Origin: Prochlorococcus sp. AG-355-I04
GTDB lineage: Bacteria; Cyanobacteriota; Cyanobacteriia; PCC-6307; Cyanobiaceae
Length of the DNA: 64,000 nt
Direction: 5' to 3'
Assembly (NCBI GenBank): GCA_003280915.1
Contig: QCDL01000005.1
Location: forward strand, 40,499-104,498
Below the pieces are notes generated by a model. The model searched no databases. It saw only the letters and a program-made list of their open reading frames with translations, and had not been told where the DNA came from. Shown here in pieces: positions 30,998 through 42,634 of this stretch; position 1 is the stretch's first letter; every line of letters starts with the position of its first letter. The position numbers and the translations under genes were made by a program.

Positions 30998-31428
30998 TTA
31001 AAAAAATTAATTGTAAATTAAACTAACATATTTATTAACTTATGTAAACCAAAACCCTTAAATAATTTATTTCTGAGTGTTCAGGAGTAAATATGTGACA
31101 TTTTTGTTTAAGAAATAGCAGAAAGCAGAGATTTTCAAATGATTTATTATCTTCAAATTCACAGAAAAGTAGCAAATTAAGCATTTATACCCACACTAAG
31201 TAATTTTACTCAGTAGAATATTCACAGCATTTAGGAAGTGCTTAGCTGGTTAGTATCAGAAGTTCTGGATTAACCAAGTCGTCATGAGCTTGCCGTTGGG
31301 ATACTGCAAGCTCTTTCAATTTTAAAGCATTTAAAAAAACAAACGATTAAAAATAATTTTTTTTATTAACAATAAATATGTCATAAAATGAATTTATTGC
31401 TAAATAAAAAATAGAAATAAAGAAAGAT

Positions 31429-36223: not shown

Positions 36224-36379
36224 TTGAAAAAATGTGATTTATGTCATAGGCAAGATAAAATTCATTACAGAGTTAAATCCATAATTCATAAAGACTGGAT
36301 TTTTTGTTGTAAAGAATGTTGGAATCTAATTTCTAAAAATAATGATTATTCCTATGGTGGCACAAGAAAGTCAAAATAA
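36224..36379 (+). CDS. Possible Cys-rich (zinc-ribbon-like) small protein, TTG start
   Basis: Manual: (M)KKCDLCHRQDKIHYRVKSIIHKDWIFCCKECWNLISKNNDYSYGGTRKSK. Confidence 0.4.
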   Translation: MKKCDLCHRQDKIHYRVKSIIHKDWIFCCKECWNLISKNNDYSYGGTRKSK

Positions 36380-38254: not shown

Positions 38255-38641
38255 ATGAATGATAAAGAAACAATAATTTCATTATTAAATGAGTTTGCTA
38301 ATCCAAAAAAAATGGCCTCATTTTTTGTTAACAATGCGACTTCAAATTTTTTGTTCATAAGACCGAGTGGTAATCCTATAGATGCAAAAGGGTTCGAACA
38401 AATGATTACTGATGAAATTGTTCAAGAAAACGCAGAAATAACAAAAATTCACCGATTCGAATTTTTAAGCGAAGATATAGTAATGTGCATTTTTACACTA
38501 GGTTCAAAATTTACTTATAAAGGGACACCTAATGATGACTTACCAACAGTTACGTCAATTTTTAAAAAAGTAAATAATTTTTGGAAAATTCACTGGATGC
38601 AAAGATCTACAGGAAATTCAGATTTATCTTTATGGGATTAG
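38255..38641 (+). CDS. SnoaL/DUF4440-like protein
   Basis: Small alpha+beta ORF, FKKVNNFWKIHWMQRS end. Confidence 0.65.
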   Translation: MNDKETIISLLNEFANPKKMASFFVNNATSNFLFIRPSGNPIDAKGFEQMITDEIVQENAEITKIHRFEFLSEDIVMCIFTLGSKFTYKGTPNDDLPTVTSIFKKVNNFWKIHWMQRSTGNSDLSLWD

Positions 38642-38721
38642 CAAAGTTAACAGCACTTTTAATGGTGCTTCTACTTGTAGGAAGTTCTTTTGTTGGTTTA
38701 ATTTTGTATTTTATAAATTAA
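38632..38721 (+). CDS. Possible TM microprotein, 29 aa, overlapping the upstream stop
   Basis: Manual: MGLAKLTALLMVLLLVGSSFVGLILYFIN. Confidence 0.45.
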   Translation: MGLAKLTALLMVLLLVGSSFVGLILYFIN

Positions 38722-39356
38722 ATAGATCAAATAATACCCAGTAACTATTTTTATTGTTTTAGAAAAAAATGCTTCCTTTTTGCTAAGTAATTTGATTTTC
38801 AGGTAAAAATAAAAACTTTAGACAGACTAACGCCTATGTCTAAAGCCAATAAAGCAATTAGTAACTTAGTCATTTTTTAGAACTCTCAACTATTTTTTTG
38901 TAAAGTTCCTCAGAAATAGGTTGCATAACCTTTTAAAAATCTAATTACAAATTAATTATTTTAAAATTAATTACTAGTTACCAAATATACGAATATATGA
39001 ATTTTTAAATAGGCAAAAAATATATTCACTATAAGTTCTTCTTATAAAGTATTAATAAATACTTAATCCAAAAACGTCAATAAATTTCCAAACTTGTTTA
39101 AAAAAGAAATTAGAAACATTATTTTAAGTAAATAGATCCTCTATAAGTAAGCTTTATAATCTTTTCTTCTTGTTTTCTACAATATACGAATGACTTTCCA
39201 TTGAAATACATGTTTACCATGATGCAGCTCCTGAACTTGCTCAAGTCCCCGTCCTATGGCTTGAGTCGTACTGCGGTCTATCAGATGGTAGATCGGACGA
39301 TTTTGTAGTATTCACTACAATCCATTTATAAAGTATTTATACTTAGATGTCAACAA

Positions 39357-41337: not shown

Positions 41338-41360
41338 AGAGGGATAAACCCCTCTTTTTT
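41338..41360 (+). terminator. Rho-independent terminator
   Basis: AGAGGG-ATAAAC-CCCTCT then T-run. Confidence 0.85.
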
Positions 41361-41420
41361 AATGTTTAATAGATTTATTTATGAAAAGATAATGACTCTT
41401 CTTATTTGTCTTTTCAGCTG

Positions 41421-41537
41421 ATGAATATTTCCCCTCACCTATTAATTGATGTTGTAATATTAAGCGCTGCCCTTACGATAACTTTGGTATTAAGAGCTAA
41501 AGGTAATGCTGCCAGAAAAGAAAAAGAAAATAAATGA
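41421..41537 (+). CDS. TM microprotein, 38 aa
   Basis: Manual: MNISPHLLIDVVILSAALTITLVLRAKGNAARKEKENK. Confidence 0.6.
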   Translation: MNISPHLLIDVVILSAALTITLVLRAKGNAARKEKENK

Positions 41538-41674
41538 TTACTAAAAAAGAAGAAAAAGAATTTAAAAAACCTAAATTATATAGATTTTGGAACTTTCTTA
41601 TTTATGGTAGTTCCATTGCTATTGGAGTTTTCTTAGTTTATTTATATTCTGCTTATGTCTTTATAAATAAATGA
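41534..41674 (+). CDS. TM microprotein, 46 aa (ATGA overlap with upstream)
   Basis: Manual: MITKKEEKEFKKPKLYRFWNFLIYGSSIAIGVFLVYLYSAYVFINK. Confidence 0.6.
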   Translation: MITKKEEKEFKKPKLYRFWNFLIYGSSIAIGVFLVYLYSAYVFINK

Positions 41675-41766
41675 CTTACATGTATGGCATGGCTATTACA
41701 TATGGGGTTGTGAGTCTTTTATTGCTTGGTGGGTTTGCATACTTTACTTTTAAAATGAAACGCTAA
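41671..41766 (+). CDS. TM microprotein, 31 aa (ATGA overlap with upstream)
   Basis: Manual: MTYMYGMAITYGVVSLLLLGGFAYFTFKMKR. Confidence 0.6.
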   Translation: MTYMYGMAITYGVVSLLLLGGFAYFTFKMKR

Positions 41767-41771
41767 TTTTA

Positions 41772-41897
41772 ATGTCCTCTTCAATGAAAGATTTCTTAGA
41801 TAAATTTTTTGATTTATGTAGAGAATATCAACAAGAAATTCCACCTCAGAAGATGGCTGAGATTTTAAGAGAATATGCAGATAGATTAGATGAATGA
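41772..41897 (+). CDS. Soluble microprotein, 41 aa
   Basis: Manual: MSSSMKDFLDKFFDLCREYQQEIPPQKMAEILREYADRLDE. Confidence 0.6.
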   Translation: MSSSMKDFLDKFFDLCREYQQEIPPQKMAEILREYADRLDE

Positions 41898-42027: not shown

Positions 42028-42285
42028 TTGATCCTTAATCCGTACAATTTTGTTCCTCTTACCGCACACATAAAACTTGAAATTTACTATTCAAATGAAC
42101 TAGAACATAGGTGTAGTCAAGAGATAAGTCTTATGGCACTAAATGACAAATTTACTATCCAAGAAATTAATTTGGATAAAAAAAACCTTTCATTTGATAA
42201 TAAGCTCAAAGAAATTGAAGCTTATTGGAATAACGAATGTGCAGAACATCCGAGTAACAACCATTGCAAGATTTTTTGTGATTAA
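42028..42285 (+). CDS. Hypothetical protein with C-terminal ECx3Px4Cx3C tail, TTG start
   Basis: Ends ECAEHPSNNHCKIFCD; paralogous tail at 42488..42634. Confidence 0.65.
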   Translation: MILNPYNFVPLTAHIKLEIYYSNELEHRCSQEISLMALNDKFTIQEINLDKKNLSFDNKLKEIEAYWNNECAEHPSNNHCKIFCD

Positions 42286-42370: not shown

Positions 42371-42472
42371 ATGACTAATTTAGGTATAGAAATTTTATTT
42401 TGGACAATTTTAATTTCTTATTTGGGATTAAGGTTTTCTCAAACTTGGAATGGATTCAAAAAACAGTATTAA
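42371..42472 (+). CDS. TM microprotein, 33 aa
   Basis: Manual: MTNLGIEILFWTILISYLGLRFSQTWNGFKKQY; GGAGG-like site upstream (aaaggaggccaagcaa). Confidence 0.55.
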   Translation: MTNLGIEILFWTILISYLGLRFSQTWNGFKKQY

Positions 42473-42487
42473 TTAGGAGAATAGAAA

Positions 42488-42634
42488 ATGAAACTACAAA
42501 CTCAGTTCACGGTTCCAAAAAAAGAATTAAAAGATCTTGATTATGTCAAGAAAGTGGATTTCTTAGAAGAAACTTTAAACAAAGAATGTATAGATTATCC
42601 AAATCAAGAAGATTGCTTGGTTTGTTGCAATTAG
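42488..42634 (+). CDS. Small protein, 48 aa, C-terminal ECx3Px4Cx3C tail
   Basis: Manual: MKLQTQFTVPKKELKDLDYVKKVDFLEETLNKECIDYPNQEDCLVCCN. Confidence 0.65.
   Translation: MKLQTQFTVPKKELKDLDYVKKVDFLEETLNKECIDYPNQEDCLVCCN

Follow-up and report, generated by a model that had tools for sequence, protein, structure and literature searches.

A conserved chain of overlapping microprotein genes for predicted single-helix membrane proteins in high-light Prochlorococcus

Cyanobacteria carry several genes for tiny single-helix membrane subunits, such as psbEFLJ and petG/L/M/N, and the psbEFLJ genes are tightly ordered. Coupled genes for small membrane proteins are already known as an arrangement. In Prochlorococcus MED4, an earlier study detected expression of 113 new short ORFs (33-130 aa), some of them in or near genomic island 5 (PMC2518516). 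Cyanobacterial mu-proteins are described as conserved, often unannotated and shorter than 80 aa, and Norf1 and Norf4 were reported there to be lacking in marine picocyanobacteria (PMC5126843). According to two further articles, genes that overlap by -4 or -1 are tightly linked in their translation (PMC10666635; PMC6728339), and the first of these adds that such overlaps are enriched among the subunits of heteromeric complexes (PMC10666635).

Here we analysed a block of very small genes in a stretch of 64,000 nucleotides (the window) from Prochlorococcus sp. AG-355-I04, whose genome comprises 1.56 Mb and carries the window on contig C5. The four ORFs of the original prediction were re-found exactly in position and length (Table 1), as were both claimed ATGA overlaps (41534-41537 for ORF1/ORF2 and 41671-41674 for ORF2/ORF3) and the 5-nt gap between ORF3 and ORF4. 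The upstream terminator that had been claimed was recovered by a pattern scan as a stem-loop at 41338-41355 followed by a T run, and it is kept in the upstream alignment of relatives. A scan for sigma-70 promoters found promoter-like sites less often than chance would predict, and we claim none; no Shine-Dalgarno sites were visible for the overlapping starts.

Table 1. Coordinates of the block within the window
Feature	Position	Strand	Description
Terminator-like hairpin and T run	41338..41361	+	Found by pattern scan; immediately 5' of ORF0
ORF0	41362..41421	+	Candidate 19-aa microprotein MFNRFIYEKIMTLLICLFS; stop overlaps ORF1 start (TGATG)
ORF1	41421..41537	+	38 aa; predicted single-helix membrane protein, basic C-terminal tail
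ORF2	41534..41674	+	46 aa; predicted single-helix membrane protein, basic N-terminus; -4 overlap with ORF1
ORF3	41671..41766	+	31 aa; predicted membrane protein with a single hydrophobic segment; overlaps ORF2 (-4)
ORF4	41772..41897	+	41 aa; soluble, acidic microprotein from a family with multiple copies in picocyanobacteria; adjoins ORF3

Each of ORF1-3 has, as predicted, one hydrophobic segment (Kyte-Doolittle 2.60, 2.22 and 1.91, respectively), and the ends are basic. Residues H6, D10 and R25 of ORF1 were invariant in the alignment. ORF1 and ORF2 were each modelled by AlphaFold2 as a single helix, and such single-helix models carry no information on assembly. If inserted into the membrane, ORF1 and ORF3 would, under the positive-inside rule, have the C-terminus inside, and ORF2 would have the N-terminus inside.

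DNA matching the block, at least in part, was present in 134 of the 151 same-genus genomes. Among the 121 loci read out, where each denominator is the number of places in which the given ORF was found, the frame was open in 114/116 loci for ORF1, 106/114 for ORF2 and 94/100 for ORF3. The overlap was -4 in 92 of 99 adjacent intact ORF1/ORF2 gene pairs and in 84 of 85 ORF2/ORF3 pairs; when every locus was included and each distinct protein pair was counted once, it was -4 in 107/116 and 99/105, respectively. The dN/dS values, obtained from intact copies only in a set with many single-cell assemblies, were 0.16 for ORF1, 0.28-0.33 for ORF2 and 0.35-0.41 for ORF3 (the ranges come from counting sites by two methods). 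Shifted frames gave 0.77-1.68, and none of the column shuffles reached values this low. The original prediction had been staked on homologues, synteny and purifying selection, and all of these were found for ORF1-3, which are genuine genes conserved across high-light Prochlorococcus. Short frames are frequent in DNA of 28% G+C, and ORF1-3 could on that ground be taken for chance open frames in AT-rich DNA; this is refuted by about 100 conserved loci and by dN/dS values below those of the controls, and we give it practically no credence.

ORF1 was present in all 24 own-genus genomes listed in the family sample, G022 holding only a short divergent relative, and nearly all named records with ORF1 are Prochlorococcus. 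In a second genus, short relatives of ORF1 (26-31 aa) have other small proteins as neighbours, membrane peptides among them. As a separate observation, a 208-aa protein encoded just 3' of psbA (L163, 4263-4889) has a start, MNISKFLLIDAVLV, resembling that of ORF1, and weak matches of this kind occur in frames of 207-230 aa in other genomes.

The predicted four-protein unit was not supported. ORF4 has the acidic, hydrophilic composition that had been claimed for it; however, even with internal starts allowed, its frame was open in no more than 46 of 91 loci, in the same assemblies that keep ORF1-3 open, and it belongs to an unrelated multicopy family. That family was found in 31 of the 59 genera sampled in the family, its conserved core (KDFLDKFFDLCREYQ.EIPP.KMAE.LR.YADRLD) is present in ORF4, and a second copy lies in the same genome at C46:2368-2505. 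In MED4, relatives of ORF3 and ORF4 are also neighbours. ORF4 is best seen as a separate microprotein family that is decaying here, a downstream passenger and an unstable member of the unit, and a four-member complex was rejected because of this decay. The decay also means that no antitoxin-like partner is retained, which speaks against ORF1-3 being small hydrophobic toxins or phage-defence peptides. Such a role would suit short, hydrophobic, basic-ended peptides encoded in a hypervariable island, but the PADLOC models of anti-phage defence gave no match, the phage collection contained no DNA or protein match to the block, and ORF1, which is strongly constrained by purifying selection, occurs in almost all of the genus sample; we consider the toxin or defence role very unlikely. 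A phage origin was rejected for want of a match in the phage collection.

Other small proteins are encoded downstream of the block. A 33-aa membrane microprotein (42371-42472, +) was open in 87 of 87 loci, and a 48-aa protein (42488-42634, +) that follows it ends in a proline-containing C-x8-C tail similar to the C-terminus of CP12; the same type of tail occurs at 42133-42285, and no Pfam match was obtained.

Upstream of ORF1, the alignment of the upstream DNA revealed a frame, ORF0, that the original prediction had missed and that reads MFNRFIAEKIMTLLISLFS. Its stop lies on the ORF1 start (TGATG or TAATG) in 104 of 113 loci, divergent ones included, such as the MED4 version MDKRFLAEKIMTLLISLIF. 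The ATG was kept in 90/95 and E8 in 95/95. From these sequence features, ORF0 is likely a coding frame. Its dN/dS of 0.86 was inseparable from the controls over 19 codons, a selection signal too weak for us to accept ORF0 as a proven gene.

The co-directed overlaps of ORF0/ORF1 (-1), ORF1/ORF2 (-4) and ORF2/ORF3 (-4) are all of the -4 or -1 type characteristic of translationally coupled pairs. ORF1-ORF2-ORF3, probably led by ORF0, would form one transcription unit 3' of the terminator. Termination-reinitiation at the TGATG and ATGA overlaps would couple their translation in vivo and yield tiny single-pass membrane proteins in a set ratio. The most likely reason would be a joint function, in which they form a small membrane assembly of their own or serve a larger thylakoid or plasma membrane complex as accessory subunits. 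We favour jointly made subunits, at about even chances, because -4/-1 overlaps couple translation and are enriched among heteromeric-complex subunits; the conserved frames and overlaps, the selection, the alternative chains described below and the single-helix models also count for this reading. Coordinated translation, as originally proposed, is well supported by the conserved -4 overlaps, whereas the membrane complex proposed with it is something that we infer.

Relatives of ORF1-3 recur in other coupled combinations in other genomic islands. One of the genomes, G015, is MED4, because its Yfr20 lies at 1336435-1336523, identical to the coordinates printed for MED4 (PMC2518516). At 816 kb in MED4, ORF1-ORF2, which span about 816334-816587, are followed by a 78-aa protein that overlaps by 1 nt and replaces ORF3; a count over the loci read out gave 13 distinct pairs with this -1 junction. 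At 359 kb, the order is ORF4, a 61-aa protein, ORF3, a 51-aa zinc ribbon, a 37-aa membrane peptide and a 48-aa membrane peptide, and the end of this chain lies 42 nt short of Yfr11, an RNA whose level falls in light and rises with DCMU. Other genomes have ORF3-zinc ribbon-ORF2 (G053), membrane peptide-24 aa-82 aa-ORF2 (G098), or membrane peptides-33 aa-ORF3 close to an hli gene (G137). The zinc ribbon/ORF2 junction was -1 and the ORF3/zinc ribbon junction -4 or -14, most of the rarer junctions being known from one or two examples each.

The 51-aa zinc-ribbon-like protein, with CxxC pairs and a TTG start (window 36224-36379, +), was found in 95 of 151 genomes and is coupled to ORF2 or ORF3 in some of them. 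A membrane peptide family of 37-43 aa (FFKELWxNQP...) was present in 121/151 genomes with up to 6 copies, for example at L181 2443-2556 and, directly after an hli gene, at L182 4264-4395. Elsewhere in the window, the gene of a 128-aa protein that looks NTF2-like by eye (38255-38641, +) shares 10 nt with that of a hydrophobic microprotein of 29 aa (MGLAKLTALLMVLLLVGSSFVGLILYFIN; 38632-38721, +), and this -10 pairing was seen in 47 distinct loci.

ORF1 occurs without ORF2 and ORF3 at L068, L069, L072, L215, L216 and L222, ORF2 occurs without ORF1 in certain other genomes, and ORF2 or ORF3 is absent or broken in some. ORF1, ORF2 and ORF3 are not obligate partners, because ORF1 or ORF2 stands alone in some genomes. 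Proximity within an island may, moreover, stem from genes moving together and not from their working together. This solitary occurrence and the swapping of partners between loci are what the main rival to joint subunits would lead one to expect, namely that ORF1-3 are genuine but independent genes, densely packed in the islands and moving as cassettes, with overlaps that merely save space or share a promoter. Nevertheless, the ORF1/ORF2 and ORF2/ORF3 overlaps of -4 survive much sequence change, and ORF2 and ORF3 are reunited in a different chain, around the zinc ribbon; we regard independence as possible but not probable. In the favoured reading, ORF1-3 belong to island-borne microprotein families that are recombined into varying coupled chains, with ORF4 as a passenger here. 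More tentatively, and with considerable doubt on our part, the islands may hold a combinatorial stock of microproteins re-assorted as coupled modules, which would yield small membrane assemblies that differ between strains and are tuned to light or nutrient stress. This proposed stock would comprise ORF1, ORF2, ORF3, ORF4, the 37-43 aa NQP membrane peptide, hli, the 51-aa zinc ribbon, membrane peptides of 29-30 aa and a GKEPP protein of 78-87 aa.

Rfam placed Yfr20 at 31225-31312 in the window; it also reported a Glutamine-II riboswitch aptamer at 39240-39302 (-), above the gathering score. The MED4 study assigns Yfr20 to genomic island 5 and describes the genes of this island as responsive to high light and to phosphorus starvation (PMC2518516). 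The block lies in the island 5 region, because Yfr20 is in the window, 10 kb away. This location, together with that of the MED4 ORF3 chain just ahead of Yfr11, is the sole lead to a possible role of ORF1-3 in light or nutrient stress.

Membership of ORF1-3 in known families was rejected, with nothing over threshold in Pfam, NCBIfam, PHROGs, PADLOC or PDB. Pfam and NCBIfam gave sub-threshold matches only; against PDB chains, the ORF1 and ORF3 profiles (A1 and A3) had no match at E<=1, and that of ORF2 (A2) had chance-level matches only. Compared with solved chains and Pfam families, ORF1-3 showed no similarity to known small subunits of PSI, PSII, cytochrome b6f or NDH, and no link to any known complex was found. 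The ExxN[GA]RxAM motif (HLIP / chlorophyll a-b binding) was absent from the ORF1-3 alignments, its sole match in the window being at about 30000. Open-access main texts yielded no description of ORF1-3. These results bear on a special case of joint subunits, in which ORF1-3 would serve a photosynthetic or respiratory complex as accessory subunits of one helix each. Their size, single helices and coupled order, the invariant H6 of ORF1, the hli genes in related chains and the light-stress link given for the island (PMC2518516) would fit, but no profile matched in PDB chains or Pfam, and the genes were limited to Prochlorococcus in these searches, with ORF2 or ORF3 absent or broken in some genomes. 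We consider this special case unlikely.

ORF1-3 resemble psbEFLJ and petG/L/M/N in comprising several tiny single-helix membrane proteins, and psbEFLJ also in tight order, whereas they show no sequence relation that we could find and are not universal in cyanobacteria. Like the predicted ORF1-3 proteins, the HLIPs are small single-helix membrane proteins; they are abundant in Prochlorococcus islands and their hli genes occur in related coupled chains, but ORF1-3 are without the ExxNxRxAM chlorophyll-binding motif. The cases consulted in the mu-protein article are not presented as coupled chains of several microproteins (PMC5126843), and the MED4 short ORFs of Steglich et al. (2008) share with ORF1-4 a small size and, for some of them, a place in or near island 5. 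In the open-access main texts searched, we found no account of the ORF1-3 families or of the way in which islands swap their partners. ORF1 is retained by almost every genome sampled from the genus and ORF2-ORF3 by most of the loci read out; these genes offer testable units for the roles of island genes, and they extend to a wider stock of microproteins whose members swap partners yet keep their stop-start overlaps.
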